A stretch of 52,565 nt of DNA from contig JAOAIL010000001.1 in NCBI GenBank assembly GCA_026414725.1, positions 1-52,565 of the forward strand, read 5' to 3'. The stretch comes from a bacterium. GTDB taxonomy: Bacteria > Ratteibacteria > UBA8468 > B48-G9 > JAFGKM01. A program made the translations under genes and the position numbers. The notes under the pieces are model-generated. The model did no database searches. It was given only the letters and a program-made list of their open reading frames with translations, and was not told where the DNA came from. Of this stretch, positions 13,642 through 29,762 are shown one piece after another (within the stretch, counting starts at the first letter, position 1; each line of letters starts with the position of its first letter).

Positions 13642-14835
13642 TTATTCCAGCACAGGACTTTCTATCATCTCCTTAAATTTTTTATAAAACATTCCTGCAT
13701 AAGCACCATCAATAACCCTGTGATCAAATGAAAAAGAGATATTCATCACAGAAATTATGCCAATTTTATCATCCATCACCACAACCTCTTTATCAATTTT
13801 CCCCACTCCCATAATCGCTAACCCTGGTGGACTTATTATCGGCTGAAAATTCTCTACACCATACATTCCTAAATTAGAGATTATAAATCTTACATTTTTA
13901 GTGTCTTCTTCAGTAAGTTTATTTAATCGTGCCTTTTCAATAATCTTTTTCCTCTCCTCTGATATCTGATATATAGTTTTACTATCACATTTTCTTAACC
14001 CAGGAACCACAAGCCCATCTTCAACAGAAACAGCCAGTCCTATATCGACTGAAGAATATATCCTTATCTCATCATTTATAAGTGCTGCATTTATCAAAGG
14101 ATATTCTTTAATCGCCCTGGCTGCGAAAAAAATAAGAAAATCCGTATAGGTAAGGTCTACTCCTTCGTTCTTTTTAATATCTTTTATCTTTGCTATCCCG
14201 TTGACATTAAATTTTCCCTGTAAGTAAAAATGTGGTATCTCTCTTTTACTTTCGCCGAGCCGTTTTGCAATAATTCTTCTTAAAGGAGACCACTCTTTTA
14301 CTGTATATTCCTCAGAAGATGTTTTCTTTACCTCTTCCTTTTTACTGGAAAGATAGTCAAGTACATCCTTTTTTTCAATCCTTCCTTCAGGACCAGAACC
14401 TTTTATAACAGTAATATCTATCCCTGCTTCTTCTGCTAACTTTTTTGCTACAGGACTTGCCTTTATTCTCCCTGATGTATCAGTTTCTGCTCTCTTCTGT
14501 ACTTCGGGGATATGTGTTTTGTCCAAAGTCCTCTCTTCAGATACATCGGCTTTTGTTCCACTTTTCTTCTCCATAATATCAAGTGGTTCATCAGGAGTAT
14601 CAGAAAGATAACCAATAACCGTTGTCACAGGTATGGCATTATCAGACGGTTCATAAAGTTTCTTCCTCAAATACCCACTTTCCAGTGCCTCAACCTCAAA
14701 ATTTGTTTTATCACTCATAACCTCAAAAATAACCTCTCCTTTCTCAACCCTGTCCCCTTCATTCTTCTTCCATGAAACAAGGTATCCCTCTTCCATTGTC
14801 TCACCTAATTTTGGCATTATGATTTCTTTAATCAT
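13642..14835 (-). CDS. pdhC: 2-oxoacid dehydrogenase E2 (dihydrolipoamide acyltransferase)
   Basis: The acyltransferase core of a pyruvate- or acetoin-type dehydrogenase complex, 397 residues. It has one lipoyl domain with the modified Lys43 in MSDKTNFEVEA, a peripheral subunit-binding domain at about 122-160 (ASPVAKKLAEEAGID), and the catalytic domain ending in FDHRVIDGAYAG near residue 370, with the conserved His and Asp. Linkers are charged and Thr/Glu-rich. A GAGGTGA ribosome-binding site precedes the ATG, 4 nt after the E1 beta gene. The substrate (pyruvate, acetoin or branched-chain) cannot be fixed from sequence alone; pyruvate is the simplest guess. Confidence 0.92.
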   Translation of the reverse strand: MIKEIIMPKLGETMEEGYLVSWKKNEGDRVEKGEVIFEVMSDKTNFEVEALESGYLRKKLYEPSDNAIPVTTVIGYLSDTPDEPLDIMEKKSGTKADVSEERTLDKTHIPEVQKRAETDTSGRIKASPVAKKLAEEAGIDITVIKGSGPEGRIEKKDVLDYLSSKKEEVKKTSSEEYTVKEWSPLRRIIAKRLGESKREIPHFYLQGKFNVNGIAKIKDIKKNEGVDLTYTDFLIFFAARAIKEYPLINAALINDEIRIYSSVDIGLAVSVEDGLVVPGLRKCDSKTIYQISEERKKIIEKARLNKLTEEDTKNVRFIISNLGMYGVENFQPIISPPGLAIMGVGKIDKEVVVMDDKIGIISVMNISFSFDHRVIDGAYAGMFYKKFKEMIESPVLE

Positions 14836-14839
14836 AAAT

Positions 14840-15817
14840 TCACCTCGCTACAAGGTTTCTAACTGCATCACATATCCTTTCAACATCGGGTATTGCTAAC
14901 TTCTCCAGAACAGGACTTTTCGGCATTGGAACATCTGCCCCTGCTACCCTTACAACAGGTGCATCAAGATAGTCAAAGGCATTCTCCATAATCTGGGCTG
15001 TAATCTCTGCACCTGTCCCACCTGTCTTACAGTCCTCCTCTACTATTATTACCCTGTTTGTCTTTTTTACTGTTTTTACAATTGCTTCTATATCCATAGG
15101 AAGTAGTGTCCTTAAATCCAGAACCTCAACAGAAATCCCTTCTTTTTCAAGAATTTCTGCTGCCTTAAGTGAGAAAAGTGTCATACGAGAATAGGTTATA
15201 AGAGAAACATCTGCTCCTTCCTTTTTTATATCCGCAACTCCTATAGGTATAGTATATTCTTCTTCTGGAACAGGTCCTTTTGTATTATAAAGCATTTTAT
15301 GCTCAATAAAGACAACCGGATTATCTTCTCTTATTGAACTTTTAAGAAGTCCTTTTGCATCATAAGGAGTAGAAGGCATAACTACCTTAATTCCTGGAAT
15401 ATGTATGAGCCATGACTCCAAACTCTGTGAATGATGCGCTCCAAGTGTTCTTCCTGCACCACCTTCAGTCCTTATAGTCAGAGGAACTGTACATTTACCA
15501 CCAAACATATATCTTATCTTTGCCACCTGATTGTTAAGTTGCTCAAGACAGAGTCCTATAAAATCAATGTACATAATTTCAGCAACAGGTCTCATACCCG
15601 TAAGTGCTGCTCCAAGCCCAACCCCCACAATTGCATTTTCTGATATAGGAGTATCTAGTACACGTTCATCACCATACTTCTTCCACAAACCTGCTGTTAC
15701 TCCATAAGCACCACCATATATAGCAATGTCCTCCCCCAATAAAAAAACCTTCTGGTCTCTCTCCATCTCCTCTATAAGTGCCTCATTGAGTGCCTCTCTG
15801 TATGTTATCTCCCTCAT
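14840..15817 (-). CDS. pdhB: 2-oxoacid dehydrogenase E1 component, beta subunit
   Basis: The beta subunit of the thiamine-diphosphate E1 enzyme, 325 residues, the normal length. Visible family stretches include MREITYREALNEAL, FLLGEDIAIYGGAYGVT, DTPISENAIVGVGLGAAL, RTEGGAGRTLGAHHSQSLE and the C-terminal transketolase region with VLDLRTLLPMD and VEEDCKTGGTGAEI. With the alpha subunit it decarboxylates the oxoacid and passes the acyl group to lipoyl-E2. It follows E1 alpha by 12 nt, with AAAGGAG before the ATG. The layout E1a-E1b-E2 is operon-like, and E3 is encoded 28 kb away. Confidence 0.95.
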   Translation of the reverse strand: MREITYREALNEALIEEMERDQKVFLLGEDIAIYGGAYGVTAGLWKKYGDERVLDTPISENAIVGVGLGAALTGMRPVAEIMYIDFIGLCLEQLNNQVAKIRYMFGGKCTVPLTIRTEGGAGRTLGAHHSQSLESWLIHIPGIKVVMPSTPYDAKGLLKSSIREDNPVVFIEHKMLYNTKGPVPEEEYTIPIGVADIKKEGADVSLITYSRMTLFSLKAAEILEKEGISVEVLDLRTLLPMDIEAIVKTVKKTNRVIIVEEDCKTGGTGAEITAQIMENAFDYLDAPVVRVAGADVPMPKSPVLEKLAIPDVERICDAVRNLVAR

Positions 15818-15829
15818 TCATCTCTCCTT

Positions 15830-16783
15830 TCATACGTAAAGGTCAGTATATAACTCTTCTGGTTCAGGGAAAGGACTATTTATAGCATATTCCACTGCCT
15901 CATCTATCTCCCTGATAACAAATTCCTCTAATTCCTTAACTTCTTCTTCTGTAAGAACTCCCTGCCCTACCATTCTTGCTGAAAATAATTTAATAGGGTC
16001 CCTTTCTCTCCAGAATTTTTCTTCTTCTCTCGTTCTGTAAACCCTTGGGTCACTCCTGCTGTGTCCATAGTATCTATAAGTATTCGCTACGATAAAACTC
16101 GGTCCTTTGCCACTTCTTGCATATTCAATCCACTTACCTGCCACCTCTCTTACAGCGAGAACATCCTGCCCATCTACTGTTTCAGAAGGCATATCAAAAG
16201 CAAGTGCTTTTTTAGAAAGGTCTTCTACGGCACTTGAACGTTTTACAGATACACTCATTCCATAAAGATTATTTTCACACACATATATAACAGGTAATTT
16301 CCATAAGGATGCCATATTAAGTGATTCAAAGAATATACCATTATTTGTCGCCCCATCTCCAAAGAAACATACAACAACTCTATCTTTCTTCTGTAATTTC
16401 ATTGATAACCCTGCACCTGTTGCTATACCTAAACCACCTGCTACAACTCCATTGGCACCTAAGTTTCCTTTTGAAAGGTCTGCAAGATGAAGAGAACCAC
16501 CTTTTCCTTTGCACACACCCGTTTTTTTACCCAGTATCTCAGCCATAAGTGCCTTGATATCCCCATCCTTTGCTATCGCATGTCCATGTCCTCTGTGTGT
16601 ACTCGTGATGTAATCATCCTGTCTCAACATTGAAATCACACCTGTAGCCACTGCCTCCATACCTGCATATAAATGTGAACCCCCTTCCGCTATATTCTTA
16701 GCAAGAAGGTCCATAATCCTATCTTCAAAATGTCTGATTTCCATCATCTGCTGAAGCAACTTCTTTGCAAGTTCCTTATTCAT
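15830..16783 (-). CDS. pdhA: 2-oxoacid dehydrogenase E1 component, alpha subunit
   Basis: The 317-residue alpha subunit binds thiamine diphosphate through GDGATNNGIFFESLN...CENN (about residues 140-170). It also shows GVCKGKGGSLHLAD and the phosphorylation-loop-like YRYYGHSRSDPRVYR. The compact size and the GKGGSMH-like stretch resemble acetoin/pyruvate E1 alpha from anaerobes and Gram-positives. The ATG follows AAAGGAGAAGAG. It starts the E1a-E1b-E2 block, 39 nt after the zinc dehydrogenase gene. The substrate is not certain, so the symbol is tentative. Confidence 0.92.
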   Translation of the reverse strand: MNKELAKKLLQQMMEIRHFEDRIMDLLAKNIAEGGSHLYAGMEAVATGVISMLRQDDYITSTHRGHGHAIAKDGDIKALMAEILGKKTGVCKGKGGSLHLADLSKGNLGANGVVAGGLGIATGAGLSMKLQKKDRVVVCFFGDGATNNGIFFESLNMASLWKLPVIYVCENNLYGMSVSVKRSSAVEDLSKKALAFDMPSETVDGQDVLAVREVAGKWIEYARSGKGPSFIVANTYRYYGHSRSDPRVYRTREEEKFWRERDPIKLFSARMVGQGVLTEEEVKELEEFVIREIDEAVEYAINSPFPEPEELYTDLYV

Positions 16784-16822
16784 TATCTCTTCTCCTTTAA
16801 TATAATCTGTTAATCCTCTAAC

Positions 16823-17857
16823 TTAAGGTGTTATTATTATCTTCAGGCCCTCTTTTTTTTCTGCCTTTTCAAGTCCTGTTTTTATCTCTTCCAGCGGATA
16901 TCGGTGTGTTATATATCTACCAGGATTTATCCTGCCTGAAGAGATAAGGTCCAGAGCAATCCTGTTATGTAATGGACTTGAACCATGTGTACCAATAACA
17001 AAAAATTCACCATAGTGTACAAGATTACTGTTAAAATTAATAAATGGCTTTTCTTTCGGAAGTCCACCAAAATAGTTAACAGACCCTCTTTTAGATACAA
17101 GTTCCAGAGCAATCTCCTGTGCCTGATGGACACCTGCTGCTACTATAACCCTGTCAGCCATCTTGCCATCAGTAAGGTCAGTAATTACTTTCTTTATATC
17201 TTCCTTCCCCATATCCACCAGTATTGCTCCTGTAAATTCAGCCATTTTTATCCTATCTGATGAAACATCCGCGAGAAAGACCCTTCCTGCTCCTGTATTC
17301 TTTGCAAGTTCTGCATGGAGACATCCTATAGGACCTGCACCGAGTATTAAAACAGTATCCCCTACTTCTATACGGCTTAACAACTGGCCATTAATTACAC
17401 AGGCAAGTGGTTCCGCCAGAGATGCATATTCAAAAGATACATTATCAGGAATTTTATTTACACATCCATTCCTCACTGCATCCTCTGGCACAAGCATATA
17501 TTCTGCGAACCCACCATCATAATGATAGCCAATTGCCTTAAGGTTATCACACATTGACTGGTATCCCTTTCTGCAGTAATAACATCTACCACATGGAATA
17601 GCAGGAGCAACTGCTACACGGTCCCCTTCTTTCAGTCCAGAAACATTTTTCCCAACCACACTTATAACACCACTCACCTCATGACCTGTAATACGAGGGA
17701 AAATGATATGTTTATGCCCGTAATGAAAAACCTTTACATCTGTCCCGCATATAGCACAACTTTTAACTTTTATAACAACCTCATTATCCCCGGGGACAGG
17801 AACTGGAACCCCCTCTATAGAAATCTCCTCAGGTCTTTTAAGAACTGCTGCTTTCAT
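16823..17857 (-). CDS. Zinc-dependent alcohol/polyol dehydrogenase (MDR family)
   Basis: A medium-chain dehydrogenase of 344 residues in the sorbitol/threonine/galactitol dehydrogenase group. Catalytic zinc ligands are Cys in CAICGTD and His-Glu in GHEVSG. The structural zinc site is CGRCYYCRKGYQSMC. The NAD-binding Rossmann motif is LGAGPIGC. It probably oxidises a polyol or sugar to a keto-sugar, which fits the neighbouring mannitol-phosphate dehydrogenase; the exact substrate is unknown. I chose the ATG at 17857 (MKAAVLKRPEE, the family's usual N-terminus, preceded by GAGAGG); an ATG at 17869 would add four residues. It overlaps the mtlD 3' end by 20 nt. Confidence 0.92.
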   Translation of the reverse strand: MKAAVLKRPEEISIEGVPVPVPGDNEVVIKVKSCAICGTDVKVFHYGHKHIIFPRITGHEVSGVISVVGKNVSGLKEGDRVAVAPAIPCGRCYYCRKGYQSMCDNLKAIGYHYDGGFAEYMLVPEDAVRNGCVNKIPDNVSFEYASLAEPLACVINGQLLSRIEVGDTVLILGAGPIGCLHAELAKNTGAGRVFLADVSSDRIKMAEFTGAILVDMGKEDIKKVITDLTDGKMADRVIVAAGVHQAQEIALELVSKRGSVNYFGGLPKEKPFINFNSNLVHYGEFFVIGTHGSSPLHNRIALDLISSGRINPGRYITHRYPLEEIKTGLEKAEKKEGLKIIITP

Positions 17858-19022
17858 TAATCCTCTCATAATAATACCCTATCTTATCAATAATCTCTCT
17901 TTCTTCTATCTTAGAGACCTCTTTAAGTATATAAAAAATACCCTTCTCTTTTATCATCTTCTGCATCTCCATCGCGCTTTTATCTTCTGGATAATTATAA
18001 CACAGGCAGGTAGCCATAACAAAACATATTTTCTCAGGGTATATACCCTGAGAAAGGCATAGATTTATCGCACCTGCAATCCTATCATTATGTCCTATTT
18101 TTCTTAAAGGGTCTCTCCCAACCCTGAATACAGTATCCTTGAGTAGTTTATTGCCAAACCTTTTTACAAGGTCGTTGATGTATTCATCTATCTCAGAAGT
18201 ATTAAAATTATGTTTTTTTATAAGTGCTGCACGTGTTTCACTCACAACTTCATCAAAGATATCTCTTATATCAGGGTTCTCAAGTGCTTCCCATATATAG
18301 GTATAACCTTTAAGATATCCTAAATACGCGAGGCAGGCATGTGATAGATTATGAATAAATAACTTTAACTCTTCATAAGGGAAAAGGTCTTCCACAGGAT
18401 ATAATCCTTTGATTGGGGGAATATCTCCTCTGAATTTTTTCTTCTCCACCGGAAGTATATTATATGGTTCAACAGTAACCAAAAGAGGGTACTTTTTTCT
18501 CATATCATCAGAGAGAGGTGCCACCATCCTGCTTACAACACTCTCTATAAGTCCTGTGCGGTTTTCTAAAAAGGACATGCCACCAGATGAAAGGTATTTT
18601 TTGATTTCTTCTTTCAGAATATCTGAACTGCCGAGAAGATTCTCACATATTACCACATTGAAATATGAATCAGGGAATATCTCTGCCTTTCTATCTATCC
18701 CATCTGCTAAAAGAGGAGCTAATGACTTAATATTATTTGCACCGACAGCAGTAAAAACAACATCTGTATCTACAAGAATCTGTGAAATTTTTTCTCTATC
18801 TGAAAAATGTATTGCAGAAAGGTCTGTTATTAACTTTTCTTCTTTTCTATCATTACCGAGCAACCATAAGGGATACTCTTTCTTTTCATTTAGCATATTA
18901 ACAACTTCTTCCACCACATCTACAAATACCAGATGATAACCTGAACTGTGGCATATATCTCCGATAAATCCCCTTCCTATCTGTCCTGCCCCGAATATTA
19001 CCACCTTTCTCTTTTCTATCAA
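17838..19022 (-). CDS. mtlD: Mannitol-1-phosphate 5-dehydrogenase family protein
   Basis: The 394-residue product is a polyol-specific long-chain dehydrogenase. Its N-terminal Rossmann motif is FGAGQIGRGFIG (about 10-21), and its body matches MtlD (VFTAVGANNIKSLAPLL, ENLLGSSDILK, ENRTGLIESVVSRM). Conserved catalytic-region residues lie in LFIHNLSHACLAYLGY. It should interconvert mannitol-1-phosphate and fructose-6-phosphate, though related polyol phosphates are possible. The start codon is TTG, well supported by AGGAGA 6 nt upstream and by the family N-terminus. No mannitol PTS gene is nearby, so polyol uptake must occur by another route. Confidence 0.88.
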   Translation of the reverse strand: MIEKRKVVIFGAGQIGRGFIGDICHSSGYHLVFVDVVEEVVNMLNEKKEYPLWLLGNDRKEEKLITDLSAIHFSDREKISQILVDTDVVFTAVGANNIKSLAPLLADGIDRKAEIFPDSYFNVVICENLLGSSDILKEEIKKYLSSGGMSFLENRTGLIESVVSRMVAPLSDDMRKKYPLLVTVEPYNILPVEKKKFRGDIPPIKGLYPVEDLFPYEELKLFIHNLSHACLAYLGYLKGYTYIWEALENPDIRDIFDEVVSETRAALIKKHNFNTSEIDEYINDLVKRFGNKLLKDTVFRVGRDPLRKIGHNDRIAGAINLCLSQGIYPEKICFVMATCLCYNYPEDKSAMEMQKMIKEKGIFYILKEVSKIEEREIIDKIGYYYERINESSSS

Positions 19023-21699: not shown

Positions 21700-22188
21700 T
21701 TAATACTCATAAGGGGTGATTGTGGGGGTTTCAAGAACAGCACCAAGAATTTCTGACGCACTCTCCTCATCTATATAGTCAATTTTTTCAAGGATACTCT
21801 GTTCAGAATATGGTAGAGAGGTAAGAACAATTCCATAACCATTTTTACCGCTCCTAAAAACTATCTTTTCCTTTTCATTATCAGTCCTTTTTATCAAAAA
21901 TAAAGATACAATAAGTAATAGAGAAACCAGAGCGAACACGGGTTTAATAATGGAGATGCGATGCGGGATAGATACCTTTATATCAGAGAGTTTCTTTTCC
22001 CATACATCCATTTGAGGTACAGATATTTCTATACTTCTACTTTTTACAATGATTTCTCTATACTCCTCAAACAATTTACTACAATCTAAACATTCTTTTA
22101 GATGTATCATAAGATTCTCTCTATCTATCTGGGATAATTCCCCTGCGAGATAATCCACCATTAATCTTTCATATCTTTTACATACCAT
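21700..22188 (-). CDS. Anti-sigma factor with zinc-finger (zf-HC2) domain
   Basis: The 162-residue product has an N-terminal zinc-binding anti-sigma domain with Cys3 and the HLKECLDC motif (His28, Cys32, Cys35). A linker follows, then one membrane helix at about 85-102 (FALVSLLLIVSLFLI), then an extracytoplasmic tail of about 60 residues. It should hold the preceding ECF sigma factor at the membrane until a signal releases it. Its start overlaps the sigma gene by 11 nt and has a strong GGGAGGT ribosome-binding site. The tail has no recognised sensor domain, so the signal is unknown. Confidence 0.87.
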   Translation of the reverse strand: MVCKRYERLMVDYLAGELSQIDRENLMIHLKECLDCSKLFEEYREIIVKSRSIEISVPQMDVWEKKLSDIKVSIPHRISIIKPVFALVSLLLIVSLFLIKRTDNEKEKIVFRSGKNGYGIVLTSLPYSEQSILEKIDYIDEESASEILGAVLETPTITPYEY

Positions 22189-22693
22189 TTTTCTTACCTC
22201 CCAGGTTTTTCTTTATCTTCTGTATAACCTGAAAGTATGTCGCTTTTACAGTTCCTATCCTGCTTTTTGTAAGTCGGGCAATCTCTTCATATGTAAGCTC
22301 CTCATAACACTTTAATATAAAAACCGCTTTCTGTTTTGGAGTAAGATTATCTATCTCTTTCTTAATACTATCTATCCTGTCTGAATTTATGAGATTCTTT
22401 TCTCCAATATGTAATCTTTCATCTTCAAAGTCCTTTTCAATAGGTAATAACCCTTTCTGTGACCTTTTATTCAAAAAATCATAAGAAAGATTAAGTGTTA
22501 TCCTGTATAACCAGGTAGAAACAGCGGCTTCATTTCTAAACTTTTCCCAGTTCTGGTATGCCCTTATAAAACTTTCCTGAACTATGTCCATAGCATCCTG
22601 CTTGTTACTAACCATTCTGAATGCCACACTATATAGTTTCCCTGCATATTCCTTATAAAATTCTTCAAATATTATCTTTTTTTCATCTGGCAT
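22178..22693 (-). CDS. ECF-family RNA polymerase sigma factor
   Basis: The 171-residue product has only sigma regions 2 and 4. Region 2 holds MDIVQESFIRAYQNWEKF and the -10-recognition stretch VSTWLYRITLN. Region 4 holds LTPKQKAVFILKCYEELTYEE followed by a helix-turn-helix ending GTVKATYFQ. It should direct a stress or envelope regulon under control of the anti-sigma factor encoded just downstream. It is transcribed divergently from rpsT. I do not see a repeated GAAC-type ECF promoter upstream, so self-regulation is not shown by the sequence. Confidence 0.93.
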   Translation of the reverse strand: MPDEKKIIFEEFYKEYAGKLYSVAFRMVSNKQDAMDIVQESFIRAYQNWEKFRNEAAVSTWLYRITLNLSYDFLNKRSQKGLLPIEKDFEDERLHIGEKNLINSDRIDSIKKEIDNLTPKQKAVFILKCYEELTYEEIARLTKSRIGTVKATYFQVIQKIKKNLGGKKNGM

Positions 22694-25175: not shown

Positions 25176-25559
25176 ATGGAAGGGATAGAAAAACAGCTGA
25201 ATATAATGATAATAGAGGATGATGATACTATAAGAAAAATTATTACTATTGAATTCAAAAGAAAGGGACATAATGTTCTTGAATATACAGATGCTGCAGC
25301 AGCAATGCAGGACCTTGAGAGAGAAAAAAAACCCATAGATGTAGCAATAGTTGACCTTATGAATATGGGGTATGGTGGAAATATTGGAGAGTATCTGAGA
25401 AAACAGAACGAATATAGAAATATCCCTATATTTTTCTATACAGCTCTTACACAACAGCAGTTCAATACAAAGATATTAGACACTCCTAACACCCACTACA
25501 TACATAAAGAACCTGGAAGTATCAAAATTCTTGTTGAAAAAATAGAGTCCCTTTTTTAA
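25176..25559 (+). CDS. Stand-alone response-regulator receiver domain
   Basis: A CheY-like single-domain protein of 127 residues. It has the acidic pair in MIIEDDDTIRK (about 12-16), the phospho-acceptor Asp in IVDLMNMGY (about 62-64), Thr in FFYTAL (near 90) and Lys in HKEPGS (near 112), so all key receiver residues are present. It lacks an output domain, so it probably passes phosphate on or binds a partner. The ATG at 25176 lies 5 nt after GGAGG; the ATG at 25164 is inside that site. It faces the FecR-CHASE2-kinase genes and could be the partner of the kinase at 28512 (inference). Confidence 0.92.
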   Translation: MEGIEKQLNIMIIEDDDTIRKIITIEFKRKGHNVLEYTDAAAAMQDLEREKKPIDVAIVDLMNMGYGGNIGEYLRKQNEYRNIPIFFYTALTQQQFNTKILDTPNTHYIHKEPGSIKILVEKIESLF

Positions 25560-25600
25560 CTCATTATCCATAATCTTTTCAAAAAAGATATAGAAATGAG

Positions 25601-25630
25601 AAAAACAGAAAGATTAAAAATTTCTGTTTT
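25601..25630. terminator. Possible bidirectional terminator
   Basis: A perfect 10-bp inverted repeat AAAACAGAAA (25602-25611) / TTTCTGTTTT (25621-25630) with a 9-nt loop lies between the convergent receiver and FecR genes. It is GC-poor. Arms rich in A on one side and T on the other fit termination in both directions. On the minus strand the stem overlaps the FecR gene stop codon. Strength is doubtful because of the low GC. Confidence 0.5.
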
Positions 25631-26681
25631 ACAGGGCTTCTTTCAACTTTTCTATAAATATAATCTTCTTCTCTTCTCCATATGTATCACCTGTTGCGCC
25701 TATAAGTCCAAATGTAGAGAGTTCAATGTATTCCTTTCCTGCTGGTGTTTTCTTCTTTTTATACTGGTATGGTCTACCATAAGGGTCCATAAAGGTTGTT
25801 CCAGCACCTAAATATGGTCCGTTCCATCCCTGAATATCAGGGTTTTTCATCAAATCCTCCAGTTTTGTAGGAACTGTTCCAGTATCCGCGTAGAAAAGTT
25901 TTATAGCATTCTCTATCGCAGAAAAGTCATTTATTACCTTTTCAGTACCCTTCTTTGCCATACTTAATTCTCTGACTATTCTTGCTGCTTCCTGTATCTG
26001 CATAGCATTTATCTCAGCAATACCACCAACAATACCTATCTCGGAAAATGGAATACTGTTCTTCCAGTTTTCCCATTCCTGTTTTTCTTTTTCCTCAAGC
26101 ATCTGTGGTGGAACAGGTGGTTTATTCGCAACTATAACTGTGGACATATTTTCTTTAAGGATTACATAACCTGGGGTCTTTGTTGATGCCACTCCCACCT
26201 CTCCTGCAATTACCCCCACTGTTGTGGTATCATCCTGCTGATTATAGTTTGTAGTAAATATTGTCCCCCTTACCCCTGCAATGGTATTGGGTGTCTCTAT
26301 GTTAAACTTCCTGTCTGGTTCAGGAAGTTTCTCCACTACAGACCATACCTTTCCCTTAGGCAACTGGACTTTTATCTCTTTTATCTCATCCTTCTCGTCA
26401 AAAAGTGAACGTTCTATCTTTATCGCTGTATTTTCCGAAAGGGTTATAACTGCTTTTTTTCCAAAAGAGATAATTGCTTTCCCTCCAGAGTCAACTTTTA
26501 CAAACATCCCTTCAGTAAGTTTACTCTTCACAGGAAGGTCTTCCCATCTGGTAGTAGCAGAATTCCAGTAATATACTGAACCAGTCCTTTCAGCGAGCAT
26601 TATCGGATTATCTCCTGCAAAACAGAATAAACTTAAATAAATTATGACTATCAACCCAAAAAGTATTTTTTTCTTTTCCAT
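25629..26681 (-). CDS. FecR domain fused to a pseudopilin GspG-like domain
   Basis: An exported 350-residue protein. It has a signal peptide (about 1-22), an SH3-like/FecR region at about 30-165 (LSENTAIKIE and NTIAGVRGTIF, the FecR signature), a linker rich in Glu and Pro (about 190-215), and a C-terminal GspG-like domain at about 255-350 (FSAIENAIKLFYADTGTVP, GWNGPYL and DPYGRPYQY). The GspG part lacks its usual N-terminal prepilin helix, so it should not polymerise as a pilin. FecR domains often act as periplasmic sensors or anchors. It is downstream of the CHASE2-cyclase and kinase genes. GGGGAG precedes the ATG. Confidence 0.85.
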   Translation of the reverse strand: MEKKKILFGLIVIIYLSLFCFAGDNPIMLAERTGSVYYWNSATTRWEDLPVKSKLTEGMFVKVDSGGKAIISFGKKAVITLSENTAIKIERSLFDEKDEIKEIKVQLPKGKVWSVVEKLPEPDRKFNIETPNTIAGVRGTIFTTNYNQQDDTTTVGVIAGEVGVASTKTPGYVILKENMSTVIVANKPPVPPQMLEEKEKQEWENWKNSIPFSEIGIVGGIAEINAMQIQEAARIVRELSMAKKGTEKVINDFSAIENAIKLFYADTGTVPTKLEDLMKNPDIQGWNGPYLGAGTTFMDPYGRPYQYKKKKTPAGKEYIELSTFGLIGATGDTYGEEKKIIFIEKLKEAL

Positions 26682-26725
26682 ATTGCTCTCCCCTGTATAA
26701 AAAATCTTTCTATCAATTTAATCCT

Positions 26726-28528
26726 TTAACTCTGTACATCTTCCGGGCATGTTATTATCACCCTGTACAGTTTCAGTTTATCCTGTTTTCCTCTGATAGT
26801 AAATACACCTGCCGGCTCACAAATTACCCTTTCCTTCACAAGATTATATGTCTCTTCTCCAATAAGTATCTCACCACCAGAAGTAAGTTCTTCTATTCTT
26901 GCAGCAACATTTACTGTGTCTCCTATGGCTGTATATTCCATCCTCTGAGTGGTTCCTATATTCCCTATAACTGCCTTACCTGTATTTATCCCCAATCCTA
27001 TCTGTACATCTCCGCTGAATTCTTGTATTTTCTTAATCATCTCTATTCCTGAATATACTGCATTAAGTGCATGTTCAGGGTCATCAACAGGAGCTCCATA
27101 TATACCCATCACCTCATCTCCTATAAATTTATCAAGTGTACCACCAAATTTAAATATCGCATCTGTCATAATACTTAATACTCTATTAAGAAAAGAAAAT
27201 GTCTCTTCAGGAGAATGGTTATCAGCATAAGAAGTAAAGCCCCTGATATCTGCAAAAAGAACTGTTATTGTTTTTTCTTCTCCCCAGAGCATAATCTCTC
27301 CTTTAAGAGCGAGAATCTTTTCCATTACCTGTGGAGATACATATCTTCCAAAAATATTCCTTATCCTCGCTTTATCCTTCACTTCCCAAATAAATTTAAC
27401 AAGTACTACTACCCCATAAACAATAAGGATACTTATAACAGGATAAAAAACATCTATCCAGAAAAGTTTTGATATAAATAAAAAGAATGTAAGTGTTATG
27501 AAAAGACAGATAAGAAACATAATAGAGATTACACTAATAACAGGAGAAAATGTAATGGCAATGGTCCCTGAAAAAAGTGAAAAACATAGCGGTATGAAAA
27601 AATTAGGAATATCTCCTGCCTTTCTTATGAACTCCCCTTTAAGAAAATTCTCTAAAAAACTCGCATGGACACCTACAAGAGGATAACCAGCAACCCCTGG
27701 AACATTCCCTGTATCAGGTACTCCTGTTGCTGTTATTCCTATAATAACTATTTTATCTCTGAATGCGTCCGGTGGTACAAAAGATGCCTTTCCCATATAG
27801 GACTGGAATACCTGAACAAATGAATAGTTAGGAAATTTTTTAAGGTCATTATAGACATTGAGGTAAACAGACCTGTCTTCATTTACAGGAATTTTTCTTT
27901 TTTGCCCGTCTATCTCAAACTCAATGAATCCTTTTCCCATCCTTAAAATAGAACCATCCAATATATCCTCTACTACAGATATATCAAGAGACCTGTATGT
28001 CTTCCCATTGTAATCTATAAAAAGTGGATACTTCCTTATAACCCCATCTTTATCAGGTATAATATTGATGAAGCCAGTGGATACCGCATACCTCTTGATT
28101 TCTTCAACTGGTTCCACTATTTTTTCTGCCTCTAAGATTCCTTTTTTCACTTCTGGACGGTCAAAAAAGAAGGGCAGGACAACATTACCTGCGTCTTTTA
28201 TCGCTTCTACAAATTCCTTATCACCTTCCTTCTGTTCAACAAATAAAATATCAAAAACAATTGCCTTTGCCCCCATACCTTTCAATATCTTTACTATTTC
28301 TGCATACCACTCTCTCGAAATCGGCCATTCTCCGAGAAGAGAAAGGGTATCATCTCCTATAAAAATAATTACTATATTACCTGTTGGTTGTTTATTCTGA
28401 AGGTATTTTATCCTCCAGTCATAAGTGGTATTTTCCAATCTTTTAAGAAAGTCCAATCTGAATAGAAAAAATAGTACTATATTTACAACAAAAGCTATTA
28501 TAAATATCTTTTCATTTCTTCTTAACAT
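26726..28528 (-). CDS. CHASE2-domain class III adenylate/guanylate cyclase
   Basis: A membrane sensor-enzyme of 600 residues. A first membrane helix (about 8-24) precedes a periplasmic CHASE2 domain (about 30-270). Then come three membrane helices (about 305-375) and a cytoplasmic class III cyclase domain (about 410-600). The cyclase keeps the metal-binding Asp residues in FADIRGFTS and FIGDEVMGIYG, the Lys in DKFIGDE, and the transition-state Asn-Arg in VNVAARIE, so it should be active. YTAIGDTVN and the Lys favour adenylate over guanylate cyclase. It overlaps the kinase gene end by 17 nt, implying coupled expression. Confidence 0.93.
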   Translation of the reverse strand: MLRRNEKIFIIAFVVNIVLFFLFRLDFLKRLENTTYDWRIKYLQNKQPTGNIVIIFIGDDTLSLLGEWPISREWYAEIVKILKGMGAKAIVFDILFVEQKEGDKEFVEAIKDAGNVVLPFFFDRPEVKKGILEAEKIVEPVEEIKRYAVSTGFINIIPDKDGVIRKYPLFIDYNGKTYRSLDISVVEDILDGSILRMGKGFIEFEIDGQKRKIPVNEDRSVYLNVYNDLKKFPNYSFVQVFQSYMGKASFVPPDAFRDKIVIIGITATGVPDTGNVPGVAGYPLVGVHASFLENFLKGEFIRKAGDIPNFFIPLCFSLFSGTIAITFSPVISVISIMFLICLFITLTFFLFISKLFWIDVFYPVISILIVYGVVVLVKFIWEVKDKARIRNIFGRYVSPQVMEKILALKGEIMLWGEEKTITVLFADIRGFTSYADNHSPEETFSFLNRVLSIMTDAIFKFGGTLDKFIGDEVMGIYGAPVDDPEHALNAVYSGIEMIKKIQEFSGDVQIGLGINTGKAVIGNIGTTQRMEYTAIGDTVNVAARIEELTSGGEILIGEETYNLVKERVICEPAGVFTIRGKQDKLKLYRVIITCPEDVQS

Positions 28529-29735
28529 TTTCCGGATCTACAGGTAGTTTCAGAATAAATGTTGTCCCCTTGCCCTGTTCAGAAACAACATTAATATCTC
28601 CCTTATGTTCTGTAACTATCTTTTTAACAACAGGAAGGCCCAGTCCTGTTCCTTTATGTCCTTTGGTTGTAAAGAAGACTTCAAATATCTTCTTTAAATT
28701 TTCAGGTGGAATTCCTGTCCCGTTATCAGATATCTTTATAAGATACATTCCAGTACTCTCCATCTCTGTTGAAATTTTTATAAACCCTGTCCCTTCAGTA
28801 ACTGCCTCACAGGCGTTAGTAAAAAGATTGAGTACAACTCTCTGCATACCATCTACATCTACTTTTACATTTTTAATCTTCTCATCCAGTTGATACTCAA
28901 CTTTTATGTTTTTTTCCCTTATCTTTTCATTATAGACACCTGTAACATCCCTTATAAAACTATTCAACTCTACCTCCTGCAAGAGTGGTTTTTTCTTGGA
29001 AGAATAATTAAGCATATCAAGTATAAGTTCTGAGATTCTATTAACATTTGCCTTTACTATATTCCAGCCCTCTTTCACATATTCCTCGGTAGAAGCCCCT
29101 ATTGTTTCATCAATAAGAGAAATACCACCTACCAGCCCATTAAGTATATTTTTAATATCATGGGAGAGAGAAAGCATTGTTTCACCAACACCTGCCATCC
29201 GTGCATTTTTCACATTTTCAATATATAAATGCGCATTTTCTATTGTAAGGGCTGCCTGAGAAGCAATAATTCTCATTAGCTCTTCATCTTTTTTATCAAA
29301 CGGTTTGCCATCTTTTCTGTTCAAAACCTCAAGTACACCCAGCAGTTTACCTTTTTTACCGGTAAGAGGAACTGCAAGTATACTTTTTGTCTTAAAATGG
29401 CTTTTCTTATCAGCGAGAGAGAAGAATCTTTTATCTTTTGAAACATCTTTAACATTTATTAATCTCTTTTCCTGTGCGCATATTCCTGCAATACCCTGTC
29501 CGAGTTTAAGTTTTATTGCTTTTACATCTCTGCCTTTTTCTCCTGTAGCAACCTCAAAAAAAAGTTCTTTCTTCTCTCTGTCATAAAGAAGGAGGGAACT
29601 GGCTTCTGCTTTAAGAATATTTTTGCTTTCTTCCATTATCAGATTAAGCAACTGGTGGAGGTTATATATGGAGGATATAAAAGAACTTATTCTTTTCAGA
29701 ACTTTAAACTTTTGCAGATACTCTCTGTCTCCCAC
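28512..29735 (-). CDS. GAF-domain sensor histidine kinase
   Basis: A soluble kinase of 407 residues with a GAF domain (about 15-165), a dimerisation/phospho-acceptor helix with LSLSHDIKN (His near 196), and a HATPase domain with NLFTNACEAV (N box), DNGTGIPP (G1) and GTGLGLPVV (G2). It has no membrane span, so the signal is cytoplasmic or comes from the linked CHASE2 protein. The start is unclear: an ATG at 29753 lies upstream of, and overlaps, a TGGTATAAT extended -10 box. Transcription from that box would begin at the in-frame GTG at 29735, which I prefer. The receiver at 25176 is a candidate partner. Confidence 0.9.
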   Translation of the reverse strand: MGDREYLQKFKVLKRISSFISSIYNLHQLLNLIMEESKNILKAEASSLLLYDREKKELFFEVATGEKGRDVKAIKLKLGQGIAGICAQEKRLINVKDVSKDKRFFSLADKKSHFKTKSILAVPLTGKKGKLLGVLEVLNRKDGKPFDKKDEELMRIIASQAALTIENAHLYIENVKNARMAGVGETMLSLSHDIKNILNGLVGGISLIDETIGASTEEYVKEGWNIVKANVNRISELILDMLNYSSKKKPLLQEVELNSFIRDVTGVYNEKIREKNIKVEYQLDEKIKNVKVDVDGMQRVVLNLFTNACEAVTEGTGFIKISTEMESTGMYLIKISDNGTGIPPENLKKIFEVFFTTKGHKGTGLGLPVVKKIVTEHKGDINVVSEQGKGTTFILKLPVDPENVKKK

Positions 29736-29741
29736 AATGTT

Positions 29742-29750
29742 ATTATACCA
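29742..29750 (-). promoter_or_regulatory. Extended -10 promoter of the histidine kinase operon
   Basis: The minus strand reads TGGTATAAT. The six bases AACATT separate it from the in-frame GTG at 29735, so the mRNA would begin at the start codon. Confidence 0.55.
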
Positions 29751-29762
29751 CATTATTGATTA

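Follow-up and report, generated by a model that had tools for sequence, protein, structure and literature searches.

A conserved FecR-CHASE2 cyclase locus with a FecR-GspG fusion and a candidate cAMP-reading GAF kinase in an uncultured bacterial class

Known FecR-CHASE2 systems and the layout of the locus

The pairing of a FecR-domain protein with a CHASE2 receptor is already known from published cyclase and kinase clusters. In Campylobacterota, a CHASE2 adenylate cyclase is clustered with FecR, TPR and phosphodiesterase genes in a proposed single pathway, and CRP-like proteins occur in 86% of the species concerned (PMC9239204). The BiofilmReg operon of Burkholderiales encodes a response regulator, a LysM-FecR protein and a CHASE2 histidine kinase (PMC5192318). 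Lcd1 of Leptospira (PDB 5w10) is a cAMP-activated diguanylate cyclase with a cAMP-responsive GAF domain (PMC8846402, PMC11800159), and the cAMP contacts of CyaB2 from Anabaena (1ykd) include R291, T293, I308, D356 and N359 (PMC4411481). Histidine kinases that read other nucleotide messengers are SgmT, for c-di-GMP (PMC3509222), and KdpD, for c-di-AMP (PMC8214093).

The window analyzed here is the whole stretch of 52,565 nucleotides. Its open reading frames and a Pfam scan revealed an apparent minus-strand operon for a kinase, a cyclase and a FecR-GspG fusion, convergent with a lone plus-strand receiver gene:

28512..29753, minus strand: cytosolic GAF-HisKA-HATPase kinase gene, opening the apparent operon (GAF 1.3e-17, HisKA 5.1e-7, HATPase_c 4e-28)
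26726..28528, minus strand: CHASE2 - class III cyclase gene (PF05226 3.6e-51; PF00211 2.1e-26)
25629..26681, minus strand: exported FecR-GspG fusion gene (PF04773 9.5e-14; PF08334 T2SSG 1.5e-11)
25176..25559, plus strand: single-domain receiver gene (PF00072 5.8e-11, scanned from 25158)

All four genes sit where the original prediction had placed them, and the receiver faces the operon as it described. The kinase and cyclase genes overlap by 17 bases and 45 bases separate the cyclase stop from the FecR-GspG start, a spacing that makes co-transcription of the three genes likely. The start codon of the kinase is uncertain, with a TATAAT-like site inside its first codons, and promoter-like sites were not enriched over shuffled sequences (18 found, 18.0 expected). 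By Pfam, the left flank contains TPR, LptE-like (weak match) and DNA polymerase delta genes, together with an ECF sigma factor and its zf-HC2 partner. TIM-barrel genes, a transporter and a murB-ddl-ftsQ-ftsA-ftsZ run are present in the right flank.

As in the Campylobacterota cluster, a CHASE2 class III cyclase adjoins a FecR-domain protein. Unlike what the accessible text describes for that cluster (PMC9239204), no phosphodiesterase gene was detected by Pfam among the operon genes and the six neighbors scanned, the FecR protein is fused to a GspG domain, the locus also encodes a GAF kinase of the cNMP type and the host has no cNMP_binding protein. With BiofilmReg the locus shares a FecR protein, a CHASE2 receptor and a two-component output, but CHASE2 is described on the kinase there, while here the cyclase carries it and the kinase is a distinct, cytosolic protein (PMC5192318). 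The locus resembles the mtxA operon of Magnetospirillum in having an exported-protein gene and then a CHASE2 cyclase gene among signaling genes, although the exported protein is another one and the accessible part of that report describes no such kinase (PMC4439547). The view that no named system has this set thus stands for the exact combination, which was not found in the literature searched, and falls for the FecR-CHASE2 clusters, which have been published. Neither a cAMP-reading GAF histidine kinase nor a FecR-pseudopilin fusion was found in the open-licence literature, covered mostly by titles and abstracts. What is new here is the GspG fusion, a sister system based on prepilin-FecR proteins and the step proposed from cAMP to the kinase.

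Conservation and co-distribution

The sample comprised 61 genomes, that of the window and 60 relatives, of which 35 are from the same uncultured class and 26 from outside it. The cyclase query matched 40 of the 61, and at E <= 1e-100 only 12, all from the class. Among the 35 class genomes, 12 have the cyclase, 11 have the kinase and none has the kinase without the cyclase (Fisher 2.9e-8, with kinship and linkage ignored and inflated by co-inheritance within the operon). In the sole genome with the cyclase and no kinase, G005, the cyclase is cut by a contig end. The order kinase, cyclase, FecR-GspG is identical in the window, G002, G008, G009, G017, G019 and G021, and the FecR-GspG gene follows the cyclase in eight genomes. 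FecR-GspG (E <= 1e-70) was detected in 11 of the 61 genomes, namely G029, G034 and the nine cyclase-bearing genomes of the order. In G034, which belongs to another family, FecR-GspG, receiver, kinase, a second FecR and cyclase are found together. G030 and G032 harbor kinase and cyclase on different contigs, the kinase lying after an unrelated gene and near a receiver, and FecR-GspG was not found in them at the same threshold. The original prediction hinged on these genes co-occurring elsewhere; the set of three genes persists in different genera and families within a single uncultured class, and this recurrence makes it more than chance.

A fixed set of four genes, as first proposed, is not what the genomes contain. 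Receiver orthologs (E < 1e-40) are present in 15 of the 61 genomes, including seven order genomes with neither kinase nor cyclase, and adjoin FecR-GspG in only four (window, G005, G008 and G009); none was found in G001 despite its operon. In family f1 the receiver occurs in five of six genomes with the cyclase versus none of ten without it (p 0.0014, kinship ignored), whereas in family f2 it occurs in seven of nine genomes lacking the cyclase, so other kinases may also phosphorylate the window-type receiver. In six of those seven it lies upstream of one kind of gene (an abhydrolase by Pfam, one copy scanned), and in G027 it is beside two other kinases. In family f4 the kinase gene has a receiver gene as its direct neighbor in G032 and G034, and at a distance of one gene in G030; these receivers differ from that of the window, the G034 copy being 22% identical. 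A role of the receiver as obligate partner is weakened by this distribution.

The cyclase, the kinase and the route of the signal

The domains of the two enzymes are as follows:

27614..28477, minus strand: CHASE2 domain, cyclase residues 18-305 (Pfam)
26765..27274, minus strand: cyclase catalytic domain, residues 419-588, with D427, K467, D471, T533, N540 and R544
29241..29663, minus strand: GAF domain, kinase residues 31-171, with the cNMP-GAF signature GIAG, D115, S118, T122, N145-R146, F152, D156
28536..29171, minus strand: HisKA (H198) and HATPase_c, kinase residues 195-406 (Pfam)

Four membrane segments of the cyclase are predicted by hydropathy. K467 and T533 are placed as in CyaB of P. 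aeruginosa (3r5g), and the other four catalytic residues are also present. We take D427 and D471 to be the metal Asp pair and K467 and T533 the specificity pair, accompanied by the Asn N540 and the Arg R544. These residues suggest that the class III cyclase is active and produces cAMP. No other class III cyclase gene is present in any of the nine order genomes that bear it, including that of the window. PF00211 matches 14 of the 35 class genomes, which are the 12 with the CHASE2 cyclase plus G029 and G031. In G001 two class III cyclase fragments at contig ends were taken as a single split gene, and G034 has two further class III cyclase places. The usual reader of cAMP is a CRP protein. A profile search with PF00027 (cNMP_binding) gave no match in the window's genome and matched one of the 35 class genomes (G009) versus 19 of the 26 outside the class.

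The kinase has no membrane segment (top 19-residue hydropathy mean 1.1), so a periplasmic signal cannot reach it directly, and its sole sensor domain is a GAF of the cNMP type. By sequence this domain is closest to the GAFs of CyaB2, Lcd1, PmGH and mammalian PDEs. With Lcd1 it shares the signature and 34% identity over 161 residues, but the output is GGDEF there and HisKA/HATPase here. The cAMP-binding GAF of CyaB2 is the top PDB match, although CyaB2 is described with tandem GAFs on the cyclase itself (PMC4411481). Like SgmT and KdpD, the kinase would be a histidine kinase reading a nucleotide messenger; the accessible accounts of those two give other messengers and other receptor domains.

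The GAF alignment included 11 orthologs, six related GAFs (three from f4 and three from outside the class), seven control GAF kinases of the order and five PDB GAFs. GIAG, D115, Ser or Thr at 118, T122, N145, Lys or Arg at 146, F152 and D156 are kept in all 11 orthologs, while GIAG, D115, T122 and N145 are found in none of the seven controls, whose gaps depend on the alignment. In the NKFDE motif the K is R in the window kinase, as in Lcd1, and the final E is present in seven of the 11 orthologs. The CyaB2 contacts R291, T293, I308, D356 and N359 map to A51, S53, V68, D115 and S118, where Lcd1 has N, S, I, D and T; R291 is therefore not kept, being Ala in the window kinase and Asn in Lcd1. H119 sits where the PDB cNMP GAFs of the alignment have Gly. 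The PmGH GAF (4mcw) bears the same signature and scores about equal to the cAMP binders in the PDB comparison, and we know of no cNMP ligand for it. The signature thus supports a cNMP ligand but does not prove it, and overall resemblance of the GAF to PDB chains was not taken as proof. We infer from the signature that the kinase GAF binds cAMP. The two-component residues are present, both in the H, N and G boxes of the kinase and in the Asp, Thr and Lys of the receiver (127 residues, with D15, D16, D60, T89 and K111), and, given adjacency and co-distribution, the kinase may phosphorylate the window receiver.

The reading that we favor, and to which we give about an even chance, is a series from FecR-GspG and CHASE2 through cAMP and the GAF kinase to the receiver. 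A periplasmic envelope signal would be sensed jointly by FecR-GspG and the CHASE2 domain of the cyclase, and this sensing would set the output of the class III cyclase and hence cAMP. The kinase GAF would read cAMP in place of a CRP-type protein, and the cytosolic kinase would phosphorylate the convergent receiver. The original prediction had the periplasmic domains feeding cAMP and the phosphorelay in parallel; a kinase with no membrane or periplasmic part, a sensor of the cNMP type and a genome with no cNMP_binding protein fit the series better.

Parallel outputs could also arise if FecR-GspG and CHASE2 drive the cyclase and the kinase GAF has a different ligand, the two branches being co-regulated and joined downstream. 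This is possible but rather doubtful: co-encoding of the genes, a signature not unique to cNMP binders (4mcw) and the kinase-receiver pairs that G030 and G032 carry apart from the cyclase agree with it, but it has to face a kinase that occurs without the cyclase in none of 35 genomes, a signature kept in 11 of 11 orthologs, a periplasm out of the kinase's reach and the lack of a cNMP_binding protein to take up the cAMP signal. Improbable is a cyclase that signals through an unrelated, unrecognized cAMP receptor, with the kinase as a housekeeping neighbor whose GAF signature is only a fold lock. The exact co-occurrence of kinase and cyclase argues against it, and the GAF-SpoIIE protein found with the same signature in the same stretch as the cyclase in f4 genomes, where more than one GAF protein may read cAMP, lends it some support but would itself be a GAF reader.

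FecR-pilin hybrids beside CHASE2 receptors

Three parts of the FecR-GspG protein were delimited downstream of a signal-like segment at residues 6-24:

26196..26498, minus strand: FecR domain, residues 62-162 (Pfam), with a PupR-like fold over 56-196
26016..26105, minus strand: linker, residues 193-222, with 14 of 30 residues invariant, no Pfam match and low model confidence
25683..25946, minus strand: GspG/T2SSG domain, residues 246-333 (Pfam), with no prepilin signal

The AlphaFold2 model, built on 13 alignment rows, is a moderate one (mean pLDDT 76, pTM 0.52). In it, residues 56-196 match the PupR signaling domain (Z 15.9, rmsd 2.4, 128 aligned) and residues 239-349 match PulG (1t92_A; Z 10.1, rmsd 2.4, 97 aligned). 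The GspG part had been said to lack the prepilin helix. It does have no prepilin signal or membrane helix, but the model places a 46-residue helix (222-267) at the pilin alpha-1 position. Both the reuse of a GspG domain outside a secretion operon and FecR with CHASE2 as a plausible sensor pair are supported. FecR-GspG would contact CHASE2, and its linker, the stretch of the protein densest in invariant residues (210-227 being modeled with low confidence), likely contacts CHASE2 or the membrane. That FecR-GspG instead acts as an anti-sigma regulator of the FecR type or as a functional T2SS pseudopilin, with the cyclase a bystander, is very improbable, and the anti-sigma role was rejected. In its favor are the FecR and T2SSG domains recognized by Pfam and fold and an ECF sigma gene at a distance of 3 kb. 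Against it, the signal-like segment replaces the expected cytosolic anti-sigma domain, that ECF is already partnered by a zf-HC2 protein, no prepilin signal is present on the GspG part and the gene follows the cyclase in eight genomes.

The fusion also occurs outside the class, in G058, where a FecR-T2SSG protein exceeds both Pfam cut-offs. A scan of named genomes with short peptide patterns, which miss distant fusions, gave ten loci; nine have the fusion, all also among the class genomes, and the tenth, from Cloacimonadota, matches residues 107-162 only. The nearest named relatives are metagenome assemblies, several of them Candidatus Omnitrophota.

The CHASE2 genes of the class genomes whose surroundings were examined include 12 with a cyclase, 24 with an HD domain and two cut short. 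For 18 of the 24 CHASE2-HD genes, and for one of the truncated CHASE2 genes, the gene immediately upstream encodes a prepilin-FecR protein, with a prepilin signal, a long helix, a pilin-like part and a C-terminal FecR domain, a domain order opposite to that of FecR-GspG. One of these 19 proteins (G023) is cut at the prepilin end. In a Pfam scan of eight prepilin-FecR proteins, one being the unpaired copy of the window's genome, FecR was detected in all eight at E <= 1.5e-4 (above the curated cut-off in six), DUF1559 in seven and N_methyl in three. The model of that copy (pLDDT 83.7, pTM 0.75) has a helix at 9-60 and a PupR-like part (Z 13.6). Pilin folds score low on it (1ay2 Z 3.8), so the pilin part rests on the signal, the helix and weak Pfam matches. 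Six CHASE2-HD genes have no prepilin-FecR gene directly upstream: G009:C28, where a LysM-FecR protein is found instead, G025:C10, G017:C48, G024:C35, G031:C295 and one in G026 at a contig end. The window's genome has a prepilin-FecR protein (L158) and its only CHASE2 gene is the cyclase, which argues against a strict pair of prepilin-FecR and CHASE2-HD.

FecR and pilin parts have therefore been combined in either order, in both cases beside CHASE2 receptors, which suggests that the hybrids are coupled to pili or pseudopili. In a broader and quite speculative scheme, which we consider unlikely as a whole, they would be the periplasmic arm of filament-coupled CHASE2 receptors. The GspG type would drive the cyclase, with cAMP passing to the GAF kinase and phosphorelay and no CRP, the prepilin type would drive the CHASE2-HD (HD-GYP-like) enzyme, and pilus or secretion status would set cAMP and c-di-GMP. 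The signal sensed by CHASE2 domains has been called unknown (PMC5192318), and recurrent FecR-pilin hybrids on CHASE2 receptors give a hint of it.

The locus is a conserved FecR-CHASE2 signaling variant and not an accidental island. If the series reading is true, it would be a cAMP pathway with a two-component kinase as receptor, in a lineage nearly devoid of cNMP_binding proteins, and cAMP control could exist in genomes that are now scored as lacking it.

GAF signature in other proteins

The cNMP-type GAF signature of the kinase (GIAG, D115, S118, T122, N145-R146, F152, D156) is shared by three proteins of f4, a family within the class:

L045:11465-12739, GAF-SpoIIE protein according to Pfam
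L044:6350-7747, protein with the signature
L171:1550-2854, protein with the signature

A CHASE2 cyclase is present on the same stretch in L044 and L045. In genome G048 (L047:3571-10010), two GAF proteins with the cNMP-type signature flank a CHASE2 cyclase, and a protein with two cNMP_binding domains follows.

FecR fusions in other settings

In G029 (L130:61-2221), a FecR-GspG gene and a gene for a class III cyclase with HEAT are convergent and 20 bases apart, with no CHASE2 between them. A FecR-T2SSG fusion was found outside the class, in G058 (L132:7205-8494), where no CHASE2 neighbour was seen.

Prepilin-FecR genes

The window's own genome harbors a gene for a prepilin-FecR protein, with a prepilin signal, a pilin-like part and a C-terminal FecR (L158:2132-3094). 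The CHASE2-HD gene is absent beside it, while the pair is retained in relatives. The following genes lie upstream of prepilin-FecR and encode proteins of about 184-215 residues:

L137:4855-5409
L154:5542-6102
L139:6807-7454

A Pfam scan of these proteins gave no match; an EIQ(L/F) stretch near the start is common to them, where seen.

Other genes in the window

Mannitol and alcohol dehydrogenase genes form a run with 2-oxoacid dehydrogenase-like parts (13642-19022), and a zf-HC2 anti-sigma gene overlaps an ECF sigma factor gene (21700-22693).
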